From NCBI GenBank assembly GCA_938017905.1, contig CALIKX010000007.1:1-32300 (forward strand): a DNA stretch of 32,300 bases, read 5' to 3'. Below, one piece after another: positions 1 to 13,269 of this stretch; positions within the stretch are counted from its first letter, which is position 1; each line of letters starts with the position of its first letter. Under the pieces are notes generated by a model, which ran no database searches, was not told the origin of the DNA, and saw only the letters and a program-made list of their open reading frames with translations. Source of the stretch: an uncultured Thermoleophilia bacterium (GTDB lineage: Bacteria > Actinomycetota > Thermoleophilia > Miltoncostaeales > Miltoncostaeaceae). Both the position numbers and the translations under genes were made by a program.

Positions 1-278
1 ACCGGCGCGGGCATGTTGACGCCCTCGTCCATCTGGATGTGCCCCACCACGTACGGCTCCTGCCCCAGGAACTCGCGGGGCGGGTAGTACACCACCGTGT
101 AGTTGGTCAGCTCGCCGGTGCCCTTCAGCTCGAACTCGGTCAGCGAGTCATTGCCGCAGTGGTAGCAGTGGTTGCGCTCCCACCACGGGCTGAGCTCGCC
201 GCACTTGTCGCACTTCATGGCGTACAGGTGCAGCTTGGGCGGGCCAAGCCGGGAGAACTCGATCGCGGAGACGGTCAC
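1..278 (-). CDS. DUF35 / OB-fold protein with zinc ribbon (3' end outside window)
   Basis: The last gene of the acyl-CoA operon; its C-terminus lies beyond the left edge, so only about 92 residues are visible. The GTG start lies 3 nt past the stop of the upstream thiolase and has a GGAGGA ribosome-binding sequence inside the end of that gene, so the two are translationally coupled. The N-terminus holds two CxxC pairs (CDKCG and CYHCG), the rubredoxin-like zinc ribbon of DUF35 proteins, followed by the start of the OB fold (GTGELTNYTVVYYPP). DUF35 proteins are non-catalytic partners of thiolase-superfamily enzymes and help shape the acyl-CoA site. Its position directly behind a Cys-containing thiolase suggests it is that enzyme's partner. 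The family call is firm; the substrate is unknown. Confidence 0.85.
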   Translation of the reverse strand, partial: MTVSAIEFSRLGPPKLHLYAMKCDKCGELSPWWERNHCYHCGNDSLTEFELKGTGELTNYTVVYYPPREFLGQEPYVVGHIQMDEGVNMPAP

Positions 279-281
279 CGG

Positions 282-1451
282 CTAGTCCTCCATGCGCTGG
301 TAGATGTGGATGGCGCCCACCGAACCGGGGCCGCCACGGCACGCGGAGATGCCGATCTCGGCACCGTCGCGCAGCATGCCCTCGGGGGCGGTGCCGCGCA
401 GCTGCTCCACCACGTCGACGGCCTGCGTGGATCCCGTGGCGCCGAGTGGGTGCCCCTTGCACAGCAGGCCACCGGAGGGGTTGATGGCCACCTTGCCGTC
501 CAGCCACGTGGAGCCATCGGCGGCACCCTTCCAGCCCTCGCCGCGCTCGGCGAAGCCCAGGCCCTCGATGCCCAGCGGCTCCTGGATGGCGAACGAGTTG
601 TAGATCTCGGCCACGTCGACGTCGTCGGCGGTGATGCCCGCCATCTCGTACGCGCGCTCCACCGGCCGGGCGAACAGGTTGTAGGCGTCGTCCAGCGTGT
701 CGCTGGCCTGATACCAGGTGCCCGAGCCCATTGAGGTGGCCGTGATGTACACCTGAGGGCGGTTGGGCTGCGACTCGAGGATCTCGGGGCGGCACAGCAC
801 CAGGGCCGACGCGGCGTCGGTCATGGGGCACACCTCGTAGAGCTTGAGCGGATCGGCCACCTTGGCGCTCTTCATCACCTCGTCCACGGTGCACTCGAAG
901 CGCAGGTGGGCCGAGGGGTTGCGGGCGCCGTAGTAGTGGTTCTTGACCGACGTGTGCGCGAGGTCCTCCTCGGTCACGCCGTAGGTCTGCATGTACTTGC
1001 GGGCCGTGAGGGCGGTGCCCGACGGGAAGGTCAGCCCGGAGAAGTACTCCTCCTTGCTGTCGGCGGCCTGGGCGATGATGGACGTGCCCTCGACGGTGGC
1101 GAGGTCGTTCATCTTCTCCACGCCCAGCACCATGACCGTGTCGTAGAGCCCCGACTCGATGGCCACGCAACCCAGGTGCAGCGCCCACGCGCCGGTGCCG
1201 CAGGCGGCCTCCACGCGCACGGCTCCGGCCGGCACCACGCCCAGGTGGTGGGCCACCATCAGGCCGGTGGAGTTCTCGTAGTTGAACCCGACCGATCCGA
1301 CGTTGCCCACGTAGAGCATCTGGACGTCCGCGGGTGCCACCCCGGCGTCGTTCATGGCCTTGCGGCCGGCCTCGACGGCGAGGTCCTTCAGCGACTTGCC
1401 GTGCTGGATCTTGTGCGGGGTCTTGCCGATCCCGAGAACGCCGACCTTCAT
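282..1451 (-). CDS. Thiolase family protein (acetyl-CoA acetyltransferase-like), catalytic Cys present
   Basis: A 389-residue thiolase-fold enzyme, about the normal length. The nucleophile is Cys84 in EAACGTG. The C-terminal half has NPSGG (324-328), GHPLGATG with His334, and Cys371 in SACRGGPG, so all three canonical catalytic residues are present; EIYNSFA (283-289) fills the place of the NEAFA motif. The start is preceded by GGGAG about 8 nt upstream. Known family chemistry is Claisen condensation or thiolytic cleavage of beta-ketoacyl-CoA, often with a DUF35 partner. Here it sits between an HMG-CoA-synthase-like subunit and a DUF35 gene, the composition seen in PhlACB-type acyltransferases and in archaeal thiolase/HMGS complexes. 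It may therefore be the catalytic subunit of a three-protein complex. The substrate cannot be read from the sequence. Confidence 0.9.
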   Translation of the reverse strand: MKVGVLGIGKTPHKIQHGKSLKDLAVEAGRKAMNDAGVAPADVQMLYVGNVGSVGFNYENSTGLMVAHHLGVVPAGAVRVEAACGTGAWALHLGCVAIESGLYDTVMVLGVEKMNDLATVEGTSIIAQAADSKEEYFSGLTFPSGTALTARKYMQTYGVTEEDLAHTSVKNHYYGARNPSAHLRFECTVDEVMKSAKVADPLKLYEVCPMTDAASALVLCRPEILESQPNRPQVYITATSMGSGTWYQASDTLDDAYNLFARPVERAYEMAGITADDVDVAEIYNSFAIQEPLGIEGLGFAERGEGWKGAADGSTWLDGKVAINPSGGLLCKGHPLGATGSTQAVDVVEQLRGTAPEGMLRDGAEIGISACRGGPGSVGAIHIYQRMED

Positions 1452-1478
1452 GACTTGTCTCCCGTCTTCCTGCCGTGC

Positions 1479-2471
1479 CTAGTGGGGCTGCTGCTGGCGG
1501 CCCTCGGTCCAGCGATAGTACGTGCCCACGCCGATCGGCTCGCCCGACTCGATCATCTCGCGCGTGCCGGCCGACTTGGGCTTCTTCGTGACCGTGATCT
1601 CCTGCGCCACGGCCTCGCCGCCGCCGTAGGCGAGGGCGAGCAGCGTGGAGCCCTTGCGCGAGGCGTCGAGCCCCAGGCACAGGGCAAGCCCGGACGACGC
1701 CGCACCCACGTTGCCGATGTCGCCGACGAACTGCGTGTTCTCGAGCTGCTTGGGCTGCACGCCCAACTTGGCCAGCCCGCGCAGCACCTGCGGGTGCGGC
1801 TGGCTGGGGCAGATGCTGGTGTACTTGCCGGTGGGCCGCTCGGTGACCTTCTCCAGCCCCGCAGTGGCAGCCGAGGTGGCCTTGGCGTAGGCGTCGAACA
1901 GCACCTCCAGGCGGAACCGGGGCTCCTGCTCTCGACCCAGCATCCAGACGTCGAACACCTCCTCCGCGGCCCGCGCCTGCGGGCCGAGTTCGGCGATGCC
2001 CTCGGCCTTCTTCCGGGGATCGATCACGAACGCCGCGGCAGCGCCTGCCGACAGCACGTCCGCCACGCGGTCGCGGTAGGCGACGAGGTGGTCCGTGGCC
2101 ACCACGAGGGTGGGACCGACGTCCAGGGTCTGCGCGATGCGGAAGGCGTCGAGCAGTCCCGTGGCGTTGGCTCCGAGGTCGATATGCACCGCGCCGTCAT
2201 CAAGCCGGAGCGCGTTGGCCAGCGTCTGTGACACCTTCCTCAACCCAAAGGGCGGGGCCTGGGTGGCCACGATGACCGCCCCCAGGCCCCTCTCACCCTT
2301 CAATGCCCGGCGCGCCGCCTCGTAGGCCATCGTGAGGGTGTCCTCATCGAGACCCGGGGTGGCGAGCCCGCGCGACCGGGGACGTCCCGGCCGCCCGTAG
2401 AACTTCTGGATCTCACCGAGCGGAGCCCGGTACTGGGGTACATAGGCCCCGTAGCTGGTGAGTACGGCCAT
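1479..2471 (-). CDS. HMG-CoA synthase / KAS III-like protein lacking catalytic Cys and His
   Basis: A 330-residue protein of the thiolase superfamily, closest in pattern to hydroxymethylglutaryl-CoA synthase and 3-oxoacyl-ACP synthase III. The nucleophile-elbow segment reads DLGANATG (98-105), where active relatives have D-x-x-A-A-C-T/A-G, so Ala103 sits where the Cys belongs. The segment matching the catalytic His (HQAN or HTPY) reads PSQPH (222-226), with Ser223 at the His position. The Asn region is kept (GDIGNVGAAS, Asn254). The fold looks intact, but condensation chemistry is unlikely. It lies 3 nt after the ligase stop and 27 nt before the thiolase. I infer a structural or CoA-binding partner of the neighbouring thiolase, as PhlA is to PhlC. 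The family call is good; the inactivity is inferred from alignment by eye. Confidence 0.8.
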   Translation of the reverse strand: MAVLTSYGAYVPQYRAPLGEIQKFYGRPGRPRSRGLATPGLDEDTLTMAYEAARRALKGERGLGAVIVATQAPPFGLRKVSQTLANALRLDDGAVHIDLGANATGLLDAFRIAQTLDVGPTLVVATDHLVAYRDRVADVLSAGAAAAFVIDPRKKAEGIAELGPQARAAEEVFDVWMLGREQEPRFRLEVLFDAYAKATSAATAGLEKVTERPTGKYTSICPSQPHPQVLRGLAKLGVQPKQLENTQFVGDIGNVGAASSGLALCLGLDASRKGSTLLALAYGGGEAVAQEITVTKKPKSAGTREMIESGEPIGVGTYYRWTEGRQQQPH

Positions 2472-2474
2472 CGG

Positions 2475-4130
2475 CTAGCGCTTCACCTTCACGCCGGCTT
2501 CCTCGCGGTCCCAGGTGTCCGCCGTGATGCCCTCGTCGCGCAGCTTGTTCTTCTGCACGCGCTCGGTGGGCGTCTTCGGCAGGGCATCCACGAACCGGAT
2601 GTAGCGCGGCACCATGAAGTACGGCATGCGCTCGGCCATGAACTCGGTCAGCTCGACCATGTCGGGCTGATCGCCCTCGGCGATGCAGACGATCATGATC
2701 TCGTCCTCCGAGGAGGCACCCTCGCCGGCCTTCACGCCGATGGCGGCGGCCTCCTTGACGTTCGGGTGCTCGGAGACCTGGCGCTCCACCTCCATGGACG
2801 ACACGTTCTCGCCGCGGCGGCGGATGTAGTCCTTCACGCGGTCCATGAAGTAGATGTAGCCGTTCTCGTCCATGCGGCCGAGGTCACCGGTGTGGAGCTT
2901 CAGGTTCTTGAAGTCCTCCGCGGTCTTCTCGGGCATGCCGTAGTAGGCGCGCATCACGATGTTCGGGATCTTCATGTCCACGACGATCTCGCCGGGGGTG
3001 TCGGCCGGCAGCGGACGGTCCGTGCCCGGCTCGACCACGAACACCTCGTAGCCGGGGTTGGCGACGCCGATGGAGCCCGGCACCGGGTCCCTGGTCGGAT
3101 CCATGTAGGTGGCCATGCCGGTCTCGGTGAGGCCGTACCCCTCAATGAACTTGACGCCGAAGCGCTCCTGGAACTCGTAGTAGATGTCCTTCGGCGTCGG
3201 CGCGGCGAACACGGTGTGCACCTTGTGCGCCTTGTCCAGGTCCGACGGCGGGATGTTCCAGATGAAGTACGACACCGCGCCGATCGAGTTGAAGATCGTG
3301 GCCTCGGCGTCGATCACCTGCTGCCAGAACTGGCTCGACGAGAAGCGCTCCACGTAGGCGATGCGGGCGCCGGCAACCAGGGCCGGGTAGCCCGACAGCA
3401 CCTGGGCGTTACTGTGGAACAGCGGCAGGCACGAGAAGAAGGTGTCGTCCGCGAGCTGCTCGATGGAGCGGCCGGAGGTCTTCGACACGACCTCCATCAG
3501 GCCGCGGGCCGAGAAGTAGTCGGCCGCGTTCTGCTTGATCACGCCCTTCGAGCGACCGGTGGTGCCCGAGGTGAACATGATGCGGGCGTCATCCACCCAC
3601 GAGTACTCGACGTCCGGCTCGCTGTCCGGCGCCTCCATGAGGGCCTCGAGCGGCTCCCACTTGAACGACGGGTCGGGGCCCTCCTGCTTGCCCGTCTTCA
3701 TCACGATGACGTGCTCCAGCATGGGGAGCTCCTTCGCGATGAAGTCCAGGCGGTCCAGGAAGATGTCCGAGATGAACAGCTTCTTGGCCTCGACCAGGTT
3801 GATGGTCCAGGACAGGAAGTCACCCTTGTAGGCGGTGTTGATCGACGACATCACGCCGCCGGCCTTGAGGATGCCGTACCAGACCGGCAGGAACTCCTCG
3901 CAGTTCGGCAGCATCACGCTGACCGACTCGCCCTTCTCCACGCCGCGTGCAAGCAGCGCGTTGGCGATGCGGTTGGCGCGGCTGTTCACCTCGCCGTAGC
4001 TCACCCAGTCGTTGCCTGCGAACTTCAGGTAGTCACGGTCGGGATGGGCCTCCGCCCGATCCCGCAGGACCTTCGCGAGGATCCAGTTGGTGGGATCCTC
4101 CTTGGCGTACCAGTCGCTCCACTCGGCCAT
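2475..4130 (-). CDS. AMP-forming acyl-CoA ligase (acyl-CoA synthetase)
   Basis: A 551-residue ANL-superfamily enzyme that should activate a carboxylic acid as acyl-AMP and pass it to CoA. The phosphate loop is FTSGTTGRSKG (186-196), GYGLTETG (331-338) is the adenine/Mg motif, HTGDLG (413-418) holds the ribose-binding Asp, and DRVKDYIRRRGEN (430-442) is the hinge. The C-terminal catalytic-lysine region reads PTERVQKNK (521-529), with Arg where many relatives have Lys (PTGKVQK); this variant occurs in CaiC-like ligases, so it need not mean inactivity. The start has a GGAGAG ribosome-binding sequence. It sits between the two thiolase modules and probably feeds both with an acyl-CoA. Chain length and substrate are unknown. 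Confidence 0.93.
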   Translation of the reverse strand: MAEWSDWYAKEDPTNWILAKVLRDRAEAHPDRDYLKFAGNDWVSYGEVNSRANRIANALLARGVEKGESVSVMLPNCEEFLPVWYGILKAGGVMSSINTAYKGDFLSWTINLVEAKKLFISDIFLDRLDFIAKELPMLEHVIVMKTGKQEGPDPSFKWEPLEALMEAPDSEPDVEYSWVDDARIMFTSGTTGRSKGVIKQNAADYFSARGLMEVVSKTSGRSIEQLADDTFFSCLPLFHSNAQVLSGYPALVAGARIAYVERFSSSQFWQQVIDAEATIFNSIGAVSYFIWNIPPSDLDKAHKVHTVFAAPTPKDIYYEFQERFGVKFIEGYGLTETGMATYMDPTRDPVPGSIGVANPGYEVFVVEPGTDRPLPADTPGEIVVDMKIPNIVMRAYYGMPEKTAEDFKNLKLHTGDLGRMDENGYIYFMDRVKDYIRRRGENVSSMEVERQVSEHPNVKEAAAIGVKAGEGASSEDEIMIVCIAEGDQPDMVELTEFMAERMPYFMVPRYIRFVDALPKTPTERVQKNKLRDEGITADTWDREEAGVKVKR

Positions 4131-4172: not shown

Positions 4173-4607
4173 TCAGGCCGCGGGGGTGAACTTGGGCATG
4201 GTGATCTCGTCGGTGACGTCGTCGAAGACGATGCGCACCTTCATGCCGATCGTGACGTCCTCGGGGTCCAGGGACGGGTAGCCATCCTCGTCCTTCACGA
4301 GGATGGTCATCATCCGCGGGCCCTCGTCCAGGTCGACCAGCGCCACGATGTGCGGCGGGTCGCCCTTGTACGCCTTGCTCGGCCCGATGAAGTGAGTCGA
4401 GTAGGTGTAGACGGTGCCGTTGCCGGAGGCGTCGGTCCAGCTGGTGTGGCTCAGGGTGCCCGGCGCGTACTTGCGCGGGTACCAGAAGGGCTTCCCGGCG
4501 TCATCGCAGGGAAGGATGAAGCGGTGCTCCTTGAGCGCTTCCCAGAACGTGGCGTCCTCGGGACGCAGGTCGGGGAGCGGCTTGTTGTATGCGGGCTTCT
4601 CGGACAT
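4173..4607 (-). CDS. DUF35 / OB-fold protein with degenerate zinc ribbon
   Basis: A complete 144-residue DUF35 protein. The family layout is clear: an N-terminal helix (RPEDATFWEALKEHRF), the ribbon region, PRKYAPG, then the OB-fold beta barrel (TVYTYSTHFIG, PHIVALVDLDEG, GMKVRIVFDD). Of the four usual zinc cysteines only Cys34 remains (CDDAGKPFWYPRKYAPG), so it probably does not bind zinc, unlike the DUF35 protein at the left edge. The start has GAGGAG upstream. It directly follows the Cys-less thiolase-fold gene, an order typical of Ltp2/DUF35 aldolase pairs of steroid side-chain degradation. I infer it partners that protein. Confidence 0.85.
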   Translation of the reverse strand: MSEKPAYNKPLPDLRPEDATFWEALKEHRFILPCDDAGKPFWYPRKYAPGTLSHTSWTDASGNGTVYTYSTHFIGPSKAYKGDPPHIVALVDLDEGPRMMTILVKDEDGYPSLDPEDVTIGMKVRIVFDDVTDEITMPKFTPAA

Positions 4608-4642: not shown

Positions 4643-5881
4643 CTACGCCGCCGACGGCGGCTCGCTGGACAGGACCAGCGCGCTCGTGGCCGCGAGGATG
4701 CCGCCCGAGCCGTTCGTGATCGCGAGCTTGGCGTCCGGCACCTGGTGGTTGCCGCCGTTGAACTCGGTCTTCGCGGAGTCATCGGCCTCGCCGCGAAGCT
4801 GCAGCACGGCCTCCACGATGTGGTGCATGGCGCCGAGGTGCGCCTGGCGGATGAGTCCGCCGTGGGTGTTCATGGGGAGCTTGCCGCCGAGCTTGGCGTT
4901 GCCCTCCATCACCCAGTCGCCCGCCTCGCCCACGCCGCAGATGCCGAAGCCCTCCAGCGCGATGAGCGGGGTGAACGAGAACGAGTCGTAGATCTCGGCC
5001 ACGTCGAGGTCCTGCGGCGTGATGCCGGCGACCTCCATGGCCCGGCGGCCTGCGCGGCCGAGGCCGTCGCGGACCGAGGCAACCGACTCGGCCTCGGAGA
5101 TGTACTGGTGCGAGAAGCCCTCGCCGATGCCGGTGATGTACACGGGCTTCTTCTTCATGTTCTTGGCGCGGGCCTCGGTGGTGACGATGAAGGCCGCGGC
5201 GCCATCGCTCACCAGCGAGCAGTCCATGGCGTGGAACGGGGTGGCGATCCACCGGTCGTTCAGCACGTCCTCCACGGTCACCGCATCGCGGAGCATGGCG
5301 TTCCACTTGAGGGCCGCGTGCTCGGACTGGGTGGCGACGACGGCCGCCAGGGCGTCCTGCGGCACGTTGTGCTCGTACATGTACCGCTGGGCCAGCAGGC
5401 CGTAGCCGCCGATGGTGGTGAGGCCGAACGGGGCCTCGTACGCGCCGTGGCTCATCTCGCGGGCCATGGCGATCATGCCCGACGACGAGATGCCCGAGCG
5501 GGTGTTGTCACCACGCACGCACAGCACGCACTCGGCCAGGCCGGCGTCGATCGCCAGAGCGGCCTGCACGGCCATCAGCGGGGCGGTGGCACCACCCACG
5601 GCGACCGACGCGAAGTACCCGGGCTTCATGCCCATGTAGTCGGCGAGCGTGGTGGAGTGCATCAGCGTCGACTCCACGAAGGAGAACGCGGTGACGATGC
5701 CATCGACATCGCTGAGCTGAAGTCCGGCGTCATCCAGCGTGGTGCGGGTCACCTCGGCGAGCAGCTCGAACGAGCCACGGTCGCTGATGATGCCCTGCTC
5801 GGTCTCGCCGACACCGGCGATGCAGATGCCCTTCGCGAGCATCCTGCGTGCTTCCTTGACGTCGGGCGTTCCCTCGGCCAT
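4643..5881 (-). CDS. Thiolase-fold protein lacking the catalytic Cys (Ltp2-like)
   Basis: A 412-residue protein of the thiolase/SCP-x group and first gene of the operon. I chose ATG 5881 (MAEGTPD) because GGGAGGA lies 7 nt upstream; a further in-frame start at 5935 has no ribosome-binding sequence. The nucleophile segment reads VAVGGATA (94-100), with Gly98 at the Cys position, and the second active-site Cys region reads ITNGSGG. His348 (AHLGAM) and AEIYDSF with Tyr298 are kept. Cys-less thiolase-fold proteins paired with DUF35 include Ltp2, a retro-aldolase that cleaves steroid side-chain CoA esters using tyrosines. An aldolase or scaffold role is therefore more likely than thiolysis. The adjacent DUF35 gene supports a two-subunit enzyme. 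Reaction and substrate are inference. Confidence 0.85.
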   Translation of the reverse strand: MAEGTPDVKEARRMLAKGICIAGVGETEQGIISDRGSFELLAEVTRTTLDDAGLQLSDVDGIVTAFSFVESTLMHSTTLADYMGMKPGYFASVAVGGATAPLMAVQAALAIDAGLAECVLCVRGDNTRSGISSSGMIAMAREMSHGAYEAPFGLTTIGGYGLLAQRYMYEHNVPQDALAAVVATQSEHAALKWNAMLRDAVTVEDVLNDRWIATPFHAMDCSLVSDGAAAFIVTTEARAKNMKKKPVYITGIGEGFSHQYISEAESVASVRDGLGRAGRRAMEVAGITPQDLDVAEIYDSFSFTPLIALEGFGICGVGEAGDWVMEGNAKLGGKLPMNTHGGLIRQAHLGAMHHIVEAVLQLRGEADDSAKTEFNGGNHQVPDAKLAITNGSGGILAATSALVLSSEPPSAA

Positions 5882-6072
5882 TCCGTGTCCTCCCAGAGGC
5901 GTCTTCGCGGTTCCGGGCGCGACGATTGCGGCCACCGAACCCGTGGGCTCCGTGACCGCCTCGGCGACGACCGGCTACCTGGTCGCGCGGCCCTCGTTTC
6001 GGACCGCCGTCTTACCGGCAGGGAAATGTACCCACCACGCCCCGGCCTCGCCTGAGAACGGTCGGCGGGCGC
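5882..6072 (-). promoter_or_regulatory. Upstream region of acyl-CoA operon with candidate operator
   Basis: This 191-bp gap precedes the six-gene acyl-CoA operon and must hold its promoter unless transcription comes from further upstream. On the minus strand TACATT (6028-6023 region) and TAAGAC are possible -10 boxes; neither has a convincing -35. An imperfect palindrome with arms CGACC and GGTCG and 14 of 18 symmetric positions lies at 5968-5985 and could be a TetR-type operator. These are weak signals. Confidence 0.3.
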
Positions 6073-6554: not shown

Positions 6555-7283
6555 CTAGGCGTCGGCGGTGTCCAGGCGCGGCGGCCCGGCCGCCATCAGC
6601 GAGTCCGCGACGGCCTCGGTGAGGAACTGCACCCGGGCCCACAGCAGGGCCGCCTCACGGGCACGCGCCGCCTCCGGCGCACGCTCCCAGAGCGGCGCCG
6701 CCACCTCGGAGCCCGATAGGCCCTCGGGGGTGGTGCGCGCCACGGCGTCATCCACCAGCTCACGGTTGCGCAGCAGGTGCTCGGCCTGCCACTCGGTGAC
6801 GCGGCGGGCGAAGGCCGGGCCGTCGTCCCCGCCCGGGCTGCACGTGGACCCGATCCCCTCGGCATACAGGCGGCCCAAAGCACGCAGCTCCACCTCGCGG
6901 TGATCGTCGTTGGGGTCGGCGGCAAGGCCGCGCTGCTCGGCGCGGGCCTCCTCGTCCAGCCGCAGGGCCTCGAGCCGCTCCTCGCCGCCCACCAGCCACT
7001 TGTCCATGTCGGCCGAGAACGATGCCGGCACCGCGGTCCAATTAACCTGGATGGCCGCCGATAGATGGCGCAGCCATGCGCGCGCCGAGGCCTGCCGCGC
7101 GCGGTCCAGGCGCTGCTCGGGCGATGGCAGCCCCTGGCCGCCCTCCGCGGCCATGAACTCCTGGATGAGGGCCTTGGAGCCCTCCTCCTTCATGCGCTCG
7201 TCCAGCGCCGGGCGGTTGTCGACCATCCACGTGACGAGTGTCTCGCCCAGCGCGGGGCCGCTGTTCTCCTGTCCATCGGGCAT
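6555..7283 (-). CDS. Hypothetical protein, acidic and helical
   Basis: A 242-residue protein I do not recognise. It is rich in Glu, Ala, Arg and Leu and probably mostly alpha-helical, with no signal peptide, membrane span or Cys motif (a single Cys in STCSPGGDD). Recurrent stretches such as RLEALRLDEEARAEQRG and RNRELVDDAVAR suggest helical bundles. Codon use matches the neighbours. The ATG at 7283 lacks a ribosome-binding sequence, but TAGCGT lies six bases upstream, so the mRNA is probably leaderless. It is divergent from the DUF2283-like gene and shares a compact promoter region with it. Confidence 0.65.
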   Translation of the reverse strand: MPDGQENSGPALGETLVTWMVDNRPALDERMKEEGSKALIQEFMAAEGGQGLPSPEQRLDRARQASARAWLRHLSAAIQVNWTAVPASFSADMDKWLVGGEERLEALRLDEEARAEQRGLAADPNDDHREVELRALGRLYAEGIGSTCSPGGDDGPAFARRVTEWQAEHLLRNRELVDDAVARTTPEGLSGSEVAAPLWERAPEAARAREAALLWARVQFLTEAVADSLMAAGPPRLDTADA

Positions 7284-7289
7284 GCGGCG

Positions 7290-7299
7290 ACGCTACCAT
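7290..7299. promoter_or_regulatory. Overlapping divergent -10 boxes (bidirectional promoter)
   Basis: The ten bases ACGCTACCAT contain a minus-strand -10 (TAGCGT, 7295 to 7290), six bases before ATG 7283, and a plus-strand -10 (TACCAT, 7294-7299) serving the gene at 7345. The two boxes share the central T-A base pairs. Symmetric divergent promoters of this kind are known in bacteria. Confidence 0.45.
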
Positions 7300-7344
7300 C
7301 GCCCCCCGGACCCGGAAACCGACATCGGTGGCAAGGAGAGCCTC

Positions 7345-7644
7345 GTGGCCGACGATCCGTATTACGACAAGGAGACCGACACCTACCGCGTGATCCACAA
7401 GGGTCACCCGAGTGCGTCGGCAGTGACGAACACCGAGGGCGTCACGGTCTTCTTCGACCCGGACAACAACGATGTCCTGGGCTTCTCGATCGCGAACTTC
7501 TCGACCTACTACGAGGCCCACGTCACCCCCGAGGGTGAGTTCGAGGTGGTGCTGCCCGCACGCGTGCCGGCGAACCTCGAGGAGGAGATGGACTTCGACG
7601 AGGAGACCATCACCAACAACGTGAGGATCGCCGAGATCTACTAG
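7345..7644 (+). CDS. DUF2283-like small protein
   Basis: A 99-residue acidic protein. The start is GTG 7345, set by AAGGAG six to seven bases upstream. The opening (YYDKETDTYRVIHKG) followed by TNTEGVTVFFDPDNNDVLGFSI resembles the DUF2283 pattern, in which a short beta-sheet protein has a Y-D-x-E-x-D-x-x-Y opening and a D-x-D-x-x-V/L-G-F/I element. No catalytic residues are known for the family. It ends at a stop followed immediately by the first copy of a 26-bp repeat. The family match is by eye and moderately sure. Confidence 0.7.
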   Translation: MADDPYYDKETDTYRVIHKGHPSASAVTNTEGVTVFFDPDNNDVLGFSIANFSTYYEAHVTPEGEFEVVLPARVPANLEEEMDFDEETITNNVRIAEIY

Positions 7645-7760: not shown

Positions 7761-8519
7761 CTACCCGGCGGGGGCCAGCAGGTCGGCCACGCCGGGGAGC
7801 ACCTCCGGGGCGGGCCGCGGGATGACCAACTTGGCGTAGCGGTCATAGTGCGTCCGGGTGGTGCCGACGATCGCCACCTTCCCCCCGCGCTTAAGGGGCA
7901 CCGACGGCAGCATTGCCATGGGATCGGTGCGCAGCTGCGTATCGAGCACCAGGAACAGGTCGCACCAGGCGGCCATGTCCCACGCCCGGATGAGGGCCTC
8001 CTCCACCAGCGGCTCGCCCCACAGGGTTCCGGTGGGGCGCAACGGGTAGCCGCAGCCCTCGCGCGTGCAGCGCGGCACGCCGTCGTCTGCGGCGTCGATG
8101 AGGCCCTGCACCTCCGACAGCGCGTAGACGTCGTCGCACCGCGCGCACCGGCACGACAGCACGTTCGCGTGGACCTCGATCAGGTCGCCGTCTCCCGCGC
8201 GGGCGTGCAGGTGATCCACCGCCTGGGTGATGATGGCGTGGATCACCCCGGCGCCCTCCAGCCGTGCGAGGGCACGGTGCGCGGGAGTCACCTCGCGCTC
8301 CGATGCCTCGATCGCCCGGGGCAGCCAGTTCTCCCAGAAGCGCGCGGGCTCGGTCAGCAGCACCTCGAGGCTGGCGAACTCTCCCCACGCGCTGCCCGCC
8401 GCGGCGGCCTCGGTGTCCTCGGTGGCTCCCAGGCGCACGCCCGTCATCGCCACGCATCGCTCCGACCCGGCGAGGAGGTCGGCCAGTCGGCGGATGTCCC
8501 CGTCCAGATCGTCGGCCAT
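7761..8519 (-). CDS. Sir2-family-fold protein with degenerate NAD site
   Basis: A 252-residue protein with sirtuin layout: Rossmann start, small zinc domain, Rossmann end. The zinc site is plausible (Cys125-x2-Cys128 and Cys151-x4-Cys156), the putative catalytic His is kept (His117, EVHAN for the usual ELHG), and RPTGTLWGEPL matches RPxVVxFGE. The NAD motifs are nearly all altered. GAGxS reads GVRLG (27-31), TQNxDxLH reads TQAVDHLH (98-105, Asn to Ala), GTSxxVxP reads DTQLRTDP, and the late Asn region reads IVGTTRTHYD. Known deacetylase chemistry needs the GAG loop and that Asn, so normal activity is doubtful. It may bind another nucleotide or be a regulatory relic. It lies 10 bp after the MFS stop and is probably cotranscribed with it; TAGGCT 7 nt before the ATG could also drive it alone. 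Confidence 0.8.
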   Translation of the reverse strand: MADDLDGDIRRLADLLAGSERCVAMTGVRLGATEDTEAAAAGSAWGEFASLEVLLTEPARFWENWLPRAIEASEREVTPAHRALARLEGAGVIHAIITQAVDHLHARAGDGDLIEVHANVLSCRCARCDDVYALSEVQGLIDAADDGVPRCTREGCGYPLRPTGTLWGEPLVEEALIRAWDMAAWCDLFLVLDTQLRTDPMAMLPSVPLKRGGKVAIVGTTRTHYDRYAKLVIPRPAPEVLPGVADLLAPAG

Positions 8520-8526
8520 GCCGCAG

Positions 8527-8532
8527 AGCCTA
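8527..8532 (-). promoter_or_regulatory. Candidate -10 box before the sirtuin-like gene
   Basis: TAGGCT, 7 nt before ATG 8519 on the minus strand. It includes the MFS stop codon TAG, so the match may be coincidental. Confidence 0.25.
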
Positions 8533-9720
8533 CGAGACCGTCGCCGGGGGGCGGGACGTGAGGGCGTCCACCGCGCGGATGCCCACGATGCCCACCCACA
8601 GCGCCGCCGTGGCACTGGTGATGGCCAGCACCAGCAGCGCAGTGGTGAGGCCCACCAGATCGGCAAGGACCCCCACCGCGAGCAGCGGGATGGAGAACCC
8701 GCCCAGGTAGCAGGCCACGTAGTAGGCGGACAGCAGCTTGCCGCGGTGCTCGACGGGGGCGATCTCGGTGGTCAGGTCCACGCCGCCTTTCATCATCAAC
8801 CCGCATGCCGCCCCGGTGATCGCGACGCTCGCGAGCAACAGCGCCTCCGATTCCAGCGGGGCCGCGGCCACCACCCCGAAGAACGAGACGCCGCCCACCG
8901 CGAGACCGATCAGGATGGCGCGGCGCGGGGCCATGTTGGGAACCAGCGCCTGGCTCACCGCGCCGCTCACCAGCACGAGGAAGCCGGACGCCCCCACCAG
9001 CGCGTAGTTGGTCACCCCCAGCACCCGCACCGTGAACACGGGAACCAGCGACAGCGCCACGCCGTCGAACAGGCTCAGGATCATCCCCGACGGCACGAGC
9101 ACCCGCCAGAACACCGAGCGCTCGCGGGGCGGCACCTCCAGTGCAAGCCGGATGGGGCGGCGGTTGCGCTGCAGCACGGTCTCGGGCAGGAACACCACGA
9201 TGGACGCCGCGATGGCCAGCAGCACGAGGTGCGCGGCGAATGGCAGCCGGAGCGGATCGGGCGCGTACTGGATGAGCACCCCGGCGATCCCCGGGCCGAG
9301 GCCCAGGCCGAGGCGCACGGAGATGGTGGCGAGCGCGGATGAGAACCGCCGGCGATCGGGGGGGCTGGCATCCACCAGGAACGCCGTGCACGTCCCGAAG
9401 AACGCTCCCGTGGCGGCCCCCTGCAGGCCACGGGCGATCAACAGCCCCGTCAGTCCGGGCTCGGCGAGGATGATCACCTGGGCGATTGCCAGCGTGGTGA
9501 TGGCGCCGAGCAGCACGGGGCGCCGCCCCACCTGGTCGGAGAACTGGCCCAGGGTGAGCATGGACGGCACCAGCGCCGCCACGTAGCAGAGCAGGAAGAG
9601 CGTGACGACGGTGTCGTTGAAGCCCAGGTCCTGCTGGTAGAGCGGGATGAGGGGAGTGATGAGGCTGGTGCCCATCGCGAAGAAGAGCAGCACCACCCAT
9701 GTGCGCCATACGCGGCCCAT
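8530..9720 (-). CDS. MFS transporter (drug/proton antiporter-like)
   Basis: A 396-residue integral membrane protein with about 12 hydrophobic spans. The MFS motif A is clear in the loop after span 2 (GQFSDQVGRRP, 58-68), and a Pro/Gly-rich span 5 region (GLGLGPGIAGVL) resembles motif C of DHA1-type exporters. Known relatives expel small hydrophobic compounds using proton influx; the substrate cannot be told. It starts 12 nt after the stop of the PrmA-like methyltransferase gene and is followed within 10 nt by the sirtuin-like gene, so the three may form an operon, though no functional link is evident. Confidence 0.9.
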   Translation of the reverse strand: MGRVWRTWVVLLFFAMGTSLITPLIPLYQQDLGFNDTVVTLFLLCYVAALVPSMLTLGQFSDQVGRRPVLLGAITTLAIAQVIILAEPGLTGLLIARGLQGAATGAFFGTCTAFLVDASPPDRRRFSSALATISVRLGLGLGPGIAGVLIQYAPDPLRLPFAAHLVLLAIAASIVVFLPETVLQRNRRPIRLALEVPPRERSVFWRVLVPSGMILSLFDGVALSLVPVFTVRVLGVTNYALVGASGFLVLVSGAVSQALVPNMAPRRAILIGLAVGGVSFFGVVAAAPLESEALLLASVAITGAACGLMMKGGVDLTTEIAPVEHRGKLLSAYYVACYLGGFSIPLLAVGVLADLVGLTTALLVLAITSATAALWVGIVGIRAVDALTSRPPATVS

Positions 9721-9732
9721 GACCCGGGAAAC

Positions 9733-10515
9733 CTAAGCCGTCACCAGCACGGCCGCCTGCCACCGGCCCATGCCCTCGCGGCGCACCTCGCGCAGCCCAC
9801 GCTGCAACCACGCCGCGGTCACCTCATCCATCGCGTCCGGCTGCAGGCCGGATAGCAGGAGGGCGGTGGGCACCGGGTCACCGGCCACCCCCAGCAGGTC
9901 GAGTTGGGCGGGCAGTGGCGCATTGGCCATCACCACCCGGCCGTCGATGGCCCCCGCTGTCAGCGCCCCGAGGGCGCCGCGCCGCACCGTCACACCGGCG
10001 TCCAGGCCACTGGCCCACGCCGACTCACGCGCCTGCGCCACCGCGCGCGGGTCCAGGTCCACGGCCACCACCGCGCCCCGACCCAGCCGCGCCCACGCCA
10101 GGGCCAGGGTGCCGCTGCCGCACCCGGCATCCAGCGCATGGCCGTCGGGCAGGGCCGGCAGGAGGTCCAGGCACATCCCGGTGGTCGGGTGCTCGGCCAG
10201 GCCGAACCCCTCCCCCGCCACCAGCACGATCTCGGGCAGGCCGGCCGGGGCGGGGGCGTGCCCCGGCGACCGCCGGTACACGCCACCACCCACTGCGGCC
10301 GGGAACGGCAGGGGTGGTGAGGGCCCCGGCTCCGGCTGCCATGGCAGATCGAGCGCCGAGAGGCGTGCCGCCTGCTCACCCTGATCGCGCCCGCCGGCGA
10401 ATGGAGCCAGCACCAGGCCGTCCGGTATCCAGGCGATCGGCTCAAGGCCCGCGAGCACGGGGAAGGCCGCCGCGATGTCCCCGGCATCACCCCGCACCGC
10501 GATGCGCGACGGCAC
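9733..10515 (-). CDS. PrmA-like class I SAM-dependent methyltransferase
   Basis: About 260 residues. The segment GFGLAEHPTTGMCLDLL (103-119) corresponds to the FGTGxHxTTxLCLxxL motif of ribosomal protein L11 methyltransferase. It is followed by the SAM-binding DAGCGSGTLALAWARLG (129-145) and the acidic strand end AVDLDPRAV (151-159). The usual NPP/NIL substrate motif reads MANAPLPAQ, so the substrate could differ from L11. In-frame GTG starts exist at 10557, 10536 and 10515. I chose 10515 because it avoids overlap with the divergent gene starting at 10538, but no ribosome-binding sequence decides it. Family call firm, exact target uncertain. Confidence 0.82.
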   Translation of the reverse strand: MPSRIAVRGDAGDIAAAFPVLAGLEPIAWIPDGLVLAPFAGGRDQGEQAARLSALDLPWQPEPGPSPPLPFPAAVGGGVYRRSPGHAPAPAGLPEIVLVAGEGFGLAEHPTTGMCLDLLPALPDGHALDAGCGSGTLALAWARLGRGAVVAVDLDPRAVAQARESAWASGLDAGVTVRRGALGALTAGAIDGRVVMANAPLPAQLDLLGVAGDPVPTALLLSGLQPDAMDEVTAAWLQRGLREVRREGMGRWQAAVLVTA

Positions 10516-10523
10516 CCCGCTCG

Positions 10524-10529
10524 TAGACT
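10524..10529 (+). promoter_or_regulatory. Candidate -10 box, leaderless start at 10538
   Basis: TAGACT ends 8 nt before GTG 10538. With no ribosome-binding sequence in between, transcription starting at the GTG would give a leaderless message. It lies in the narrow gap between two divergent genes. Confidence 0.45.
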
Positions 10530-10537
10530 CACCCACC

Positions 10538-11863
10538 GTGACCGCCGGCTCCAGCACCCAGATGATCGACGTGGCCCGCTACGCCGTGCAGGAGATCGGG
10601 CGCCTCGACCTGGAGGCCCGCCTCGACCTGATCACCGCCGGGGCGCGGGCGATCGCCTCCGAGGCACAGGCCATCGAGGACGCGGCCGTGGTCGGGGCGG
10701 GACAGGCGCGCAAGTTCGCGCGCCGCGAGATCGGCAGCGCCCTCGATCTGCTGGATGCACTTCCCGCGCTGGCCGAGGCCATCCGCCCGGTGGACGTGCC
10801 GGCGCGGTCGGGTCACACGCGGCTGGAGTTCGCCCCCTACGGCGTGGTCTTCGGTTGGCACTCCGCGAACTCGCCGGTGTGGGTGCCCACGCTGGTGGCG
10901 GCCTCGGCCTTCGCGGGCGGCAACGCCGTGCTGGCCCGCCCATCGCGTCGGGCGGGCACCGCAACGGCCCGCGTGCTCGAGGCACTCACCTACCGGTGGC
11001 CGCTGGGCGCCGTGCAGGTTGTGGACGACCCCCCCGAGCAGGCCGAGGCCCTCATGACGGCCCCGGGGATCGGCGCCGTGGTGGCGCATGCCTCCACGGC
11101 CACGTGCCGACGCCACATGGCCCGGCTGGCGGCGGCATACGCCGACGGCGCGACCATGCGCCCGTACATCCCGGAGGCCTCCGGCAACGACGCGCTGGTG
11201 GTGCTGGACGGCGCCGACATGGATCGCGCCGCCGAGGCCGCGGCGCTGGGTGGTTTCGCGAACGCAGGCCAGCTGTGCATGGCGGCCAAGCGGATCGTGG
11301 TGGAGCGCGCCGCGCGCGACGAGTTCGTCCCACGCCTGATCGACGCCGTCGAGGCCCTCGTGACCGGTCCGGCGGATGATGAGCGCACCGACGTGGCCCC
11401 GATCGCCGCGGGCGCCCGCGCGCGCGCGGTGGCCGACCTCGAGGAGGCCATCGCAGCGGGAGGCCGCGTGCTCACCGGTGGCACGGACGGGTTGGCGCCC
11501 GGCGGCGCACCATCCCCGACCGTGGTGCTGCTGCCCGGCTCCGCCCTGCACGTGCAGCTGTGGCGGGATGAGTCGTTCGCCCCGCTGCGCGGGCTGGCCA
11601 TCGCCGACGACGCCCGGCACGCGGTGGCGCTCGCGAATGACTCGCCCTACGGACTGGGCGCCGCGGTATTCGGCCCGCACGAGCGGGCCATGACGGTGGC
11701 CGCCGCGCTCAAGGGGGCACGCATCACGGTGAACGAGGGGCCGCTGTACCAGGACCCGCACCTGGTGGTGGGCGGGGTGGGCGACTCGGGGCTCGCCGGC
11801 GCGCGCCCCAAGGTGGAGCAACTGGTCTACGCGCGCCGCGTGCACGTGGCCGCGGGCGGCTGA
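10538..11863 (+). CDS. Aldehyde dehydrogenase family protein, divergent active site
   Basis: About 441 residues, shorter than the usual 460-500 because the N-terminus is reduced. The GTG at 10538 is chosen because of the -10 box TAGACT just upstream; an ATG at 10562 is the alternative. The catalytic Cys247 is in GQLCMAAKRI and the general-base Glu213 in PEASGND, replacing the usual ELGGK. The oxyanion motif PWNFP is replaced by GWHSANSPVW (106-115), so the conserved Asn is displaced or lost. ALDHs oxidise aldehydes to acids with NAD(P)+. This one could be a semialdehyde dehydrogenase with altered specificity. It faces a second, canonical ALDH gene tail to tail, 4 nt apart. Confidence 0.85.
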   Translation: MTAGSSTQMIDVARYAVQEIGRLDLEARLDLITAGARAIASEAQAIEDAAVVGAGQARKFARREIGSALDLLDALPALAEAIRPVDVPARSGHTRLEFAPYGVVFGWHSANSPVWVPTLVAASAFAGGNAVLARPSRRAGTATARVLEALTYRWPLGAVQVVDDPPEQAEALMTAPGIGAVVAHASTATCRRHMARLAAAYADGATMRPYIPEASGNDALVVLDGADMDRAAEAAALGGFANAGQLCMAAKRIVVERAARDEFVPRLIDAVEALVTGPADDERTDVAPIAAGARARAVADLEEAIAAGGRVLTGGTDGLAPGGAPSPTVVLLPGSALHVQLWRDESFAPLRGLAIADDARHAVALANDSPYGLGAAVFGPHERAMTVAAALKGARITVNEGPLYQDPHLVVGGVGDSGLAGARPKVEQLVYARRVHVAAGG

Positions 11864-11867
11864 GACG

Positions 11868-13256
11868 CTATGCCAGCACCCGCAGGTGCTGCCACCGGAT
11901 GAAGGCCTCCAGTCCGGGGTGCCCGAGTTCGGCACCGATCCCCGAGCCCTTCCAGCCGCCGTACGGCGCGTAGGGCACCACCACGCGCCAGCCGTTCACG
12001 ACGACGGTGCCGCACTCGATCCGCGCTGCCACCTCGAGGGTGCGGCGCGACTCGCCTCCGCAGAGGTACGACACCAACCCGTAGTCGGGCCGGTTGGCCT
12101 CGGTAATGGCCTCCTCGACGTCGTCGTAGGGCATCACGGCGACCACCGGCGTGAAGGGCTCCTCGTCCACCAGCAGCACGCCCGGGCCGGCGCCCGTCAC
12201 GAGCGCAGGCTCCACGTAGTTGCCGTCGAGCAGCGCGCCACCCTCGACGGTCGCGCCCTTGCCCCGGGCGTCATCCATGAGCATGGCGTGGCGCGCGCGT
12301 CCGCGATCGGTGGCCATCGGGCCGAGCTGCAATGCGGCGATGCCGGGGCGCAGGCGATCCAGCAGGTCCTGCTCCATGTGCCGCGGCACCAGGATGCGAT
12401 TGACCGAGTAACAGGCCTGTCCGCAGTTGGCGAAGCCCTGCACCAGGGCGACTTCGGCCGCCACGTCCAGGTCGGCGTCGTCGAGCACCGCCAGCGCGCC
12501 GTGCCCGCCGAGCTCCAGCGACAGGGCCTTCAGGCGCGGGGACGCCCACGCGGCGATCTGCTCGGCCACGCGGCGCGATCCGGTGAACGCCACCTTGTCC
12601 ACCCCCGGGTGCGTGCAGAGCGCCTCGCCGATCACCGGCCCGTCGCCCGTGATGCACGACACCACGCCGTCGGGCAGGCCCGCCTCGGTCGCCAGGTCAC
12701 ACAGCCGGCGCGCGGCGAGGGGCGCCTCCTCGGCCGGCTTCACGATCATGCAGCACCCGGCGGCCAGGGCCGGACCGAGCTTCCACAGCACCAGCGCCAC
12801 CGGGAAGTTCCATGGGGTGATGGCCGCCACCACGCCGATCGGCGCGGGCCGGACGATCGAGCCGGTCGAGAGGGTCGGGCCCGGCAACTGCATGTTCCAG
12901 AGGCGCTCGGCCTCCCCGGCGAAGTGGTGCATCACCTCGCAGGCGCGGGCCACCTCGGCCTGCGCCTCGCCGAGGGGCTTGCCCTCCTCGCGGTGGATCG
13001 TCTCGGCCAACTCGGGCTGGTGCTCATCCAGCGCCGCGGCGTAGCGCCGGATGGCCTCGGCACGCCCCAGCGGTCCGAGCGCCTCCCAGCCGGGCAGGGC
13101 GGCGCGGGCGCGTGCAACCGCGGCATCGACGTCCTGCGGCCGGCCGGATGCGACCTCGGCGATCACCTCGCCCGTCGCCCGGTCGTCCACGGCGATCCAG
13201 TCGGGGGTCTCGACGCGCGAATCGCCGATGACAAGCGAATACCGGGGAGCGCTCAT
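11868..13256 (-). CDS. Aldehyde dehydrogenase (canonical active site)
   Basis: A 462-residue NAD(P)-dependent aldehyde dehydrogenase of normal length. All hallmark residues are present: TPWNFP with Asn150, cofactor Lys173 in KPAEEAP, FTGSRRV (224-230), LELGGHG with Glu248, and GQACYSVNRI with Cys282. The pattern resembles succinate-semialdehyde or broad-range aldehyde dehydrogenases, but the substrate cannot be fixed. ATG 13256 is chosen because TAGGGT lies 7 nt upstream and no ribosome-binding sequence is present, which suggests a leaderless start; reading further upstream has no support. It ends tail to tail with the divergent ALDH homologue. Confidence 0.92.
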   Translation of the reverse strand: MSAPRYSLVIGDSRVETPDWIAVDDRATGEVIAEVASGRPQDVDAAVARARAALPGWEALGPLGRAEAIRRYAAALDEHQPELAETIHREEGKPLGEAQAEVARACEVMHHFAGEAERLWNMQLPGPTLSTGSIVRPAPIGVVAAITPWNFPVALVLWKLGPALAAGCCMIVKPAEEAPLAARRLCDLATEAGLPDGVVSCITGDGPVIGEALCTHPGVDKVAFTGSRRVAEQIAAWASPRLKALSLELGGHGALAVLDDADLDVAAEVALVQGFANCGQACYSVNRILVPRHMEQDLLDRLRPGIAALQLGPMATDRGRARHAMLMDDARGKGATVEGGALLDGNYVEPALVTGAGPGVLLVDEEPFTPVVAVMPYDDVEEAITEANRPDYGLVSYLCGGESRRTLEVAARIECGTVVVNGWRVVVPYAPYGGWKGSGIGAELGHPGLEAFIRWQHLRVLA

Positions 13257-13263
13257 GGCGCGC

Positions 13264-13269
13264 ACCCTA
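13264..13269 (-). promoter_or_regulatory. Candidate -10 box of the canonical ALDH gene
   Basis: TAGGGT on the minus strand, 7 nt before ATG 13256. No clear -35. Confidence 0.4.

Follow-up and report, generated by a model that had tools for sequence, protein, structure and literature searches.

Three solved complexes provide the closest described comparisons for a locus encoding an HMGS-like protein, a thiolase and a DUF35 protein. PhlACB of Pseudomonas protegens (PpATase, PDB 5M3K/5MG5) has this same set, with an HMGS-like subunit (PhlA) that lacks the catalytic Cys and His and a thiolase that retains its nucleophile Cys, and only residues of the thiolase subunit PhlC act in catalysis (PMC6392133). 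The enzyme is a Friedel-Crafts acylase of DAPG biosynthesis. MucABC of Streptococcus macacae (PDB 9VBO/9VBT), listed as a multi-component acyltransferase complex, is the acylase of a natural-product pathway, and its HMGS-like chain is vacant too, with Glu at the Cys position and Gln at the His position. The archaeal acetoacetyl-CoA thiolase/HMGS/DUF35 complex of Methanothermococcus (6ESQ) is encoded by the same gene set but differs in having a catalytic HMGS (Cys114, Glu82) that feeds the mevalonate pathway. DUF35 proteins are also the partners of the steroid aldolases Ltp2 (Ltp2-ChsH2) and Sal (Sal-Shy) (6OK1/9MYR), which have a thiolase fold and a YDxF motif and lack the nucleophile Cys. Our literature search on bacterial HMGS-DUF35 genes found only PhlACB, Sal, Trf and one sterol-operon paper.

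Organization of the locus

The window analyzed here, 32,300 nucleotides, is the whole of contig G000:C7 from a 1.54-Mb genome whose closest relatives, going by organism name, are Miltoncostaeales/Thermoleophilia MAGs. The first-pass annotation described three consecutive HMGS-like, thiolase and DUF35 genes, and we confirmed these as three minus-strand ORFs with gaps of 3 and 27 bases, the DUF35 gene being cut by the contig end. It did not note that these genes make up the 3' half of a longer minus-strand operon of six genes, in the order Thl2, DUF35_2, acyl-CoA ligase, HMGS-like, Thl1, DUF35_1, listed here by position.

3-278, minus strand: DUF35_1, Zn-ribbon/OB-fold protein, first 92 aa (Pfam OB_ChsH2_C, 43 bits)
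282-1451, minus strand: Thl1, SCP2-type thiolase (residues invariant in 11 orthologs; best PDB matches 7yvy and 6ESQ chain A)
1479-2471, minus strand: HMGS-like pseudoenzyme, very likely, 330 aa (alignment to 6ESQ chain I; AF2 model)
2475-4130, minus strand: AMP-forming acyl-CoA ligase (Pfam AMP-binding, 221.5 bits)
4173-4607, minus strand: DUF35_2, Thl2 partner (best PDB match 9myr_B, the DUF35 chain of the CtSal complex)
4643-5881, minus strand: Thl2, Ltp2/Sal-type thiolase-fold protein (best PDB match 4u4e, then Ltp2 6ok1 and CtSal 9myr)

An upstream GTG at 5935 is a possible alternative start for Thl2. The ligase scored 456.8 bits against NCBIfam PRK06155, under the cutoff of 722. Because base 1 is the end of the contig, DUF35_1 is incomplete and only its N-terminal 92 aa lie in the window; full-length orthologs (in L004, L009 and others) have 133 to 145 aa and four zinc-ligand cysteines, and their top PDB match is 6ESQ chain E (E 9e-20). 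The genome contains two matches each to Pfam OB_ChsH2_C (DUF35) and Thiolase_C_1, all of them within the operon.

The carriers of the operon are small freshwater and marine actinobacteria. Gene order is identical in every genome where the contig permits a view, including genera other than that of the window, and it is kept in more than 10 genomes from several genera. An apparent separation of the trio from Thl2 in one genus, suspected from its contigs, turned out to reflect contigs that end within the ligase gene. The cultured marine Miltoncostaea oceani carries the operon on a plasmid of 46.6 kb, which encodes the trio proteins WP_217925196, -195 and -194; the annotation there gives the HMGS-like gene as a hypothetical protein. 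The closest relative carries one in-frame TAG in its Thl2 gene (L002/G005:C27:14794-16026), either an assembly error or a recent loss. Operons 87 to 90% identical, of Miltoncostaeales type, occur in three MAGs titled Nanopelagicales, Acidobacteria and Bifidobacterium breve (L005, JAURME010000102.1; L007, JAGWYY010000008.1; L009, CAMAVU010000003.1); the titles clash with the operon, and these bins are likely mislabelled or contaminated.

The HMGS-like subunit is vacant

The HMGS-like protein aligned to archaeal HMGS (6ESQ chain I) across almost its full length. The reported replacements were borne out by this alignment, which places Ala103 (codon 2163-2165) at the HMGS Cys position and Ser223 (codon 1803-1805) at the His position, and the catalytic Glu of the archaeal complex is lost as well, with Gln71 in its place. 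Across orthologs position 103 is Ala, Ser, Pro or Gln, position 223 is Ser in every sequence aligned and the Glu position is variable; the catalytic Cys and His are absent from all orthologs aligned. From the Cys-His-Asn triad of KAS III, Asn254 alone is retained. The vacancy also survived a check for another Cys or His at the site. The 12-row ortholog alignment contains no invariant Cys in the HMGS-like protein, which rules out another Cys as the nucleophile, and the sole invariant His near the site, His226, takes the place of Asn in the HQPN motif of HMGS.

The best NCBIfam match was the archaeal HMGS family PRK04262 at 110.7 bits, below the cutoff of 244; the score against TIGR00748, which has a curated cutoff of 353.35, was 65.4 bits, and no Pfam family matched the protein. 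An AF2 model built from 12 sequences had a mean pLDDT of 78.4 and a pTM of 0.83, with poor loops near residues 27-35, 75-77 and 130-140. Its top PDB match was 6ESQ_I (Z 34.9 over 298 residues), with PhlA at about Z 34, MucABC at Z 31, at only 15% identity in the structural alignment, and KAS III and other HMGS chains near 29-30. A search of the genome, which is 95% complete, turned up no HMG-CoA reductase, and the mevalonate pathway context of the archaeal complex is therefore missing. With the catalytic residues gone, the scores far under the cutoffs and no reductase found, a genuine HMG-CoA synthase was ruled out. The protein is very likely a pseudo-HMGS subunit.

A protein that is remodelled rather than dead would also fit some of these observations: His226, Asn254 and Glu286 are all invariant in the 12-row alignment, an alignment to HMGS and KAS III puts Glu286 next to the former oxyanion loop, and together with the SQPHP motif the three residues could form a new site, for instance for hydration, proton transfer or hydrolysis. 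However, the combination of SQPHP and Glu286 is absent from PhlA, MucA and the HMGS-DUF35 fusions described below, and the surroundings of the former active site vary (A/S/P/Q at 103), making this the least probable of the readings that we considered.

The HMGS-like and Thl1 genes were found in an identical set of 24 of the 42 family genomes, a match that reflects linkage as well as co-occurrence since the two genes adjoin. Median dN/dS values were 0.17 for HMGS-like, 0.10 for Thl1, 0.08 for Thl2 and 0.14 for DUF35_2. The HMGS-like protein thus evolves faster than its catalytic partners yet is clearly constrained, the pattern expected of a scaffold. A decaying pseudogene was ruled out, given this dN/dS and a frame that is open in all genomes seen. 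The same value, together with a gene order kept in more than 10 genomes, argues that the trio is not a chance arrangement, and the loss of the residues in all orthologs while the gene is kept under purifying selection argues for a pseudo-HMGS complex.

Two thiolase-fold proteins of different kinds

The complete triad ascribed to the thiolase stood up: Cys84 (1200-1202), His334 (450-452) and Cys371 (339-341) of Thl1 are invariant in 11 orthologs, Cys371 being the CxG-type Cys. Thl1 carries the motif Tyr284-Asn-Ser-Phe (YNSF) at the place where 6ESQ, SCP2 thiolases and fusion-partner thiolases have HDCF. By score it is nearer to archaeal thiolases (7yvy, 270.8 bits; 6ESQ chain A, 230.8 bits) than to PhlC. 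The 6ESQ complex provides the best PDB match for both HMGS-like and DUF35_1 and the second best for Thl1. The curated cutoff for BbsB, of the benzoylsuccinyl-CoA thiolase BbsAB, was not reached (NF053628, 171.9 versus 750 bits).

Thl2 lacks the nucleophile Cys and has a YDSF motif and His348, all conserved in 8 orthologs. It shares with Ltp2 and Sal the thiolase fold, the missing Cys, the YDxF motif and a DUF35 partner, and the PDB matches of DUF35_2 were 9myr_B of the CtSal complex (E 1e-18) and then 6ok1_B of the Ltp2 complex. It differs in the catalytic acid, which is Tyr344 in Ltp2 and Cys304 in Sal (PMC12329534): His348 occupies the place of Tyr344 and Ser300 that of Cys304. The operon also has no hydratase.

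Vacant HMGS domains are widespread

A profile search of Actinomycetota returned many distant HMGS-like relatives that are HMGS-DUF35 fusions of about 470 to 530 aa. All aligned fusions, dozens of them in Actinomycetota, lack the HMGS Cys and His, and both residues are kept in that alignment only by archaeal HMGS and one ordinary KAS III. The rarity of such a vacancy, implied by the first-pass annotation, was therefore wrong, as PhlA, MucA and the fusions are equally vacant. Judging from the sequences, a dead HMGS domain is the rule and not the exception among these bacterial relatives.

A thiolase gene directly follows the fusion on the same strand in 20/20 loci fetched, versus 0/15 control stretches, and these thiolases keep their own Cys, as well as HDCF and GHP wherever the sequence extends that far. 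Catabolic neighbors are enriched around randomly sampled fusions, if only modestly, with CaiB at 7/20 versus 0/15, enoyl-CoA hydratase at 6/20 versus 1/15 and acyl-CoA dehydrogenase at 4/20 versus 2/15. Fusion-thiolase pairs from Actinomycetota, Proteobacteria and haloarchaea share with our locus the vacant HMGS, the DUF35, the adjacent thiolase and the acyl-CoA context, but differ in that HMGS and DUF35 are fused, the thiolase has HDCF and no CxG Cys, and they occupy a separate branch of the tree.

In that tree the standalone HMGS-like clade forms one group (100/100) on a long stem (2.1 changes per column) and is separate from the fusions, and this distance means that the role of the fusions may not carry over. 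PhlA groups with catalytic archaeal HMGS at 99/97. Descent shared with PhlA, apart from catalytic HMGS, was not found for the HMGS-like clade, which stands separate, the deeper fork in the tree being open. The topology suggests, with the deepest forks open, that catalysis was lost at least twice.

Genomic context favors a catabolic thiolase complex

Annotated fusion relatives lie near acyl-CoA dehydrogenases, hydratases, SDRs and CoA transferases in Rhodococcus DK17, Diaphorobacter and Natrialba plasmids. In Novosphingobium ES2-1 a fusion and its thiolase cluster with a P450, an OB-fold protein, a lipid-transfer protein and a FadD3 ligase, and the order of these genes matches the estrogen edc OpA operon of N. 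tardaugens. The fusion pairs would thereby include the edc "HMG-CoA synthase" EGO55_13555, a link made by gene order and annotation. The edc authors could assign no step to this protein and pointed out that a condensing enzyme makes no sense in estrogen degradation (PMC7793797).

Further genes of the window travel with the operon:

7761-8519, minus strand: SIR2-family protein (Pfam SIR2, 80 bits; block conservation)
10502-11863, plus strand: ALDHa, aldehyde dehydrogenase family protein, GQxC site kept (operon-linked across genera)
11868-13265, minus strand: ALDHb, aldehyde dehydrogenase, GQAC and ELGG kept (operon-linked across genera)

These three and an MFS transporter accompany the operon, with relative orientations that differ between genera. 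As a block, SIR2-MFS-PrmA-like-ALDHa-ALDHb (7761-13265) adjoins it across genera with varying orientation and side (L122, L126, L040, L121, L133), on MAG contigs here and on the plasmid in M. oceani. The motifs of the SIR2-family protein appear altered by eye (TGVRLGAT, TQAVDHLH, EVHAN), and it may be a degenerate sirtuin; acyl-CoA ligases can be deacylated by sirtuins. At 7282-7644 on the plus strand, a small acidic protein of no Pfam family is conserved beside the operon, on the opposite strand to it, in the genera examined. Several genera have nearby a ThDP acetolactate-synthase-like enzyme, a CbbQ/NorQ AAA protein, a 364-aa protein of no known family and a VWA protein (L004:16459-20990, L133:7679-13647). 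On the M. oceani plasmid (NZ_CP064358.1) there are also two neighboring genes of the acetoacetate decarboxylase family, along with the F420 genes cofG and cofH.

The first-pass annotation suggested a multi-subunit acyltransferase or condensing enzyme, possibly with phenolic or keto acceptors. Its PhlACB-like and archaeal-like architecture with a noncatalytic HMGS is supported by sequence, predicted fold, conserved order and co-occurrence, and the trio shares with PhlACB and MucABC three genes encoded together and the lost Cys and His. For a C-acyltransferase of the PhlACB/MucABC type, in which Thl1, on an HMGS-like and DUF35 scaffold, would acylate phenolic, tetramate or keto compounds as part of a biosynthetic pathway, one may add that the motif with Tyr284 is the one in which Ltp2/Sal have Tyr294/Tyr302, and PhlC perhaps Tyr298. 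Yet the conserved block contains no polyketide, tetramate or other natural-product genes, the operon brings an acyl-CoA ligase, an aldolase pair and linked ALDHs, Thl1 has the second catalytic-type Cys371, and PhlA joins archaeal HMGS and not the clade of the window. The trio is probably not a phenol acylase, and we regard the wider acylase reading as quite unlikely. A catabolic thiolase is likelier because of the ligase, the Ltp2/Sal-type pair, the linked ALDHs and the relatives in beta-oxidation-type clusters.

A biosynthetic, condensing direction appears a little less improbable, though still unlikely. Thl1 would make a beta-ketoacyl-CoA to which Thl2-DUF35_2 adds an acyl-CoA enolate, so that the net reaction would resemble that of HMGS but proceed without its chemistry. 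Archaeal thiolase/HMGS complexes work in this direction, a retro-aldolase can in principle run backward and both DUF35 pairs sit in one operon; against this, HMG-CoA reductase was not found, relatives lie in catabolic clusters and the linked aldehyde dehydrogenases fit a retro-aldol product. The annotated relatives in acyl-CoA catabolic clusters, the Ltp2/Sal-like Thl2, the ALDHs and the missing reductase thus lead us to lean toward the catabolic direction for Thl1.

Our preferred reading, which we hold at slightly better than even, is that the trio is a catabolic beta-ketoacyl-CoA thiolase complex with a pseudo-HMGS scaffold and PhlACB-like architecture. It is favored by the co-occurrence of HMGS-like and Thl1, the fold close to 6ESQ_I, PhlA and MucABC, the vacancy of PhlA and MucA with only PhlC residues acting, and the vacant fusions with their adjacent thiolases. 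What we see directly is the sequences, the residue losses, the conserved order and co-occurrence and the predicted fold, and from these we infer the physical complex, its direction, its substrate and all reaction steps.

By analogy with the three solved complexes, HMGS-like, Thl1 and DUF35_1 likely form a complex in which DUF35_1 would clamp the Thl1 dimer onto a dimer of the HMGS-like protein. The latter could no longer form an acyl-enzyme and would give half of the CoA/substrate cavity and hold the assembly together. Chemistry would take place in Thl1 only, where Cys84 would accept the acyl group and Cys371, His334 and probably Tyr284 would act as acid/base residues, resulting in thiolytic (retro-Claisen) cleavage of a beta-ketoacyl-CoA. 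The ligase of the operon would make the CoA ester, and Thl2-DUF35_2 would make a retro-aldol cut whose aldehyde could be oxidized by the linked aldehyde dehydrogenases. Bile-acid side chains are processed by such a set of CoA ligase, retro-aldolase and aldehyde dehydrogenase (PMC12329534). The substrate that the whole block would shorten is, as our guess, a carboxylic acid with a branched or cyclic structure. The operon contains no hydratase, hydroxyacyl-CoA dehydrogenase or acyl-CoA dehydrogenase and therefore does not show a complete route of degradation.

Implications for bacterial HMGS-like proteins

The architecture of the trio is already known as a kind, and the most useful lead is the generality of the dead HMGS domain. 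We tentatively propose, at a little under even chances, that a DUF35-tied thiolase with a dead HMGS domain represents a large, unrecognized class of bacterial catabolic beta-ketoacyl-CoA thiolases, of which the standalone clade would be a second, divergent lineage with a two-cysteine/Tyr thiolase and a coupled retro-aldolase. The cultured host M. oceani makes the trio testable.

These genes are currently annotated as HMG-CoA synthase, KAS III-like, OB-fold or hypothetical proteins. Should the proposal hold, orphan "HMG-CoA synthase" genes, among them the estrogen edc gene to which no step could be assigned, would have an explanation. If the HMGS domain is a noncatalytic partner of the adjacent thiolase, many annotations would be corrected, an estrogen-degradation gene would be given a role, and one subunit of a conserved complex would have lost catalysis repeatedly, in PhlA independently according to the tree.
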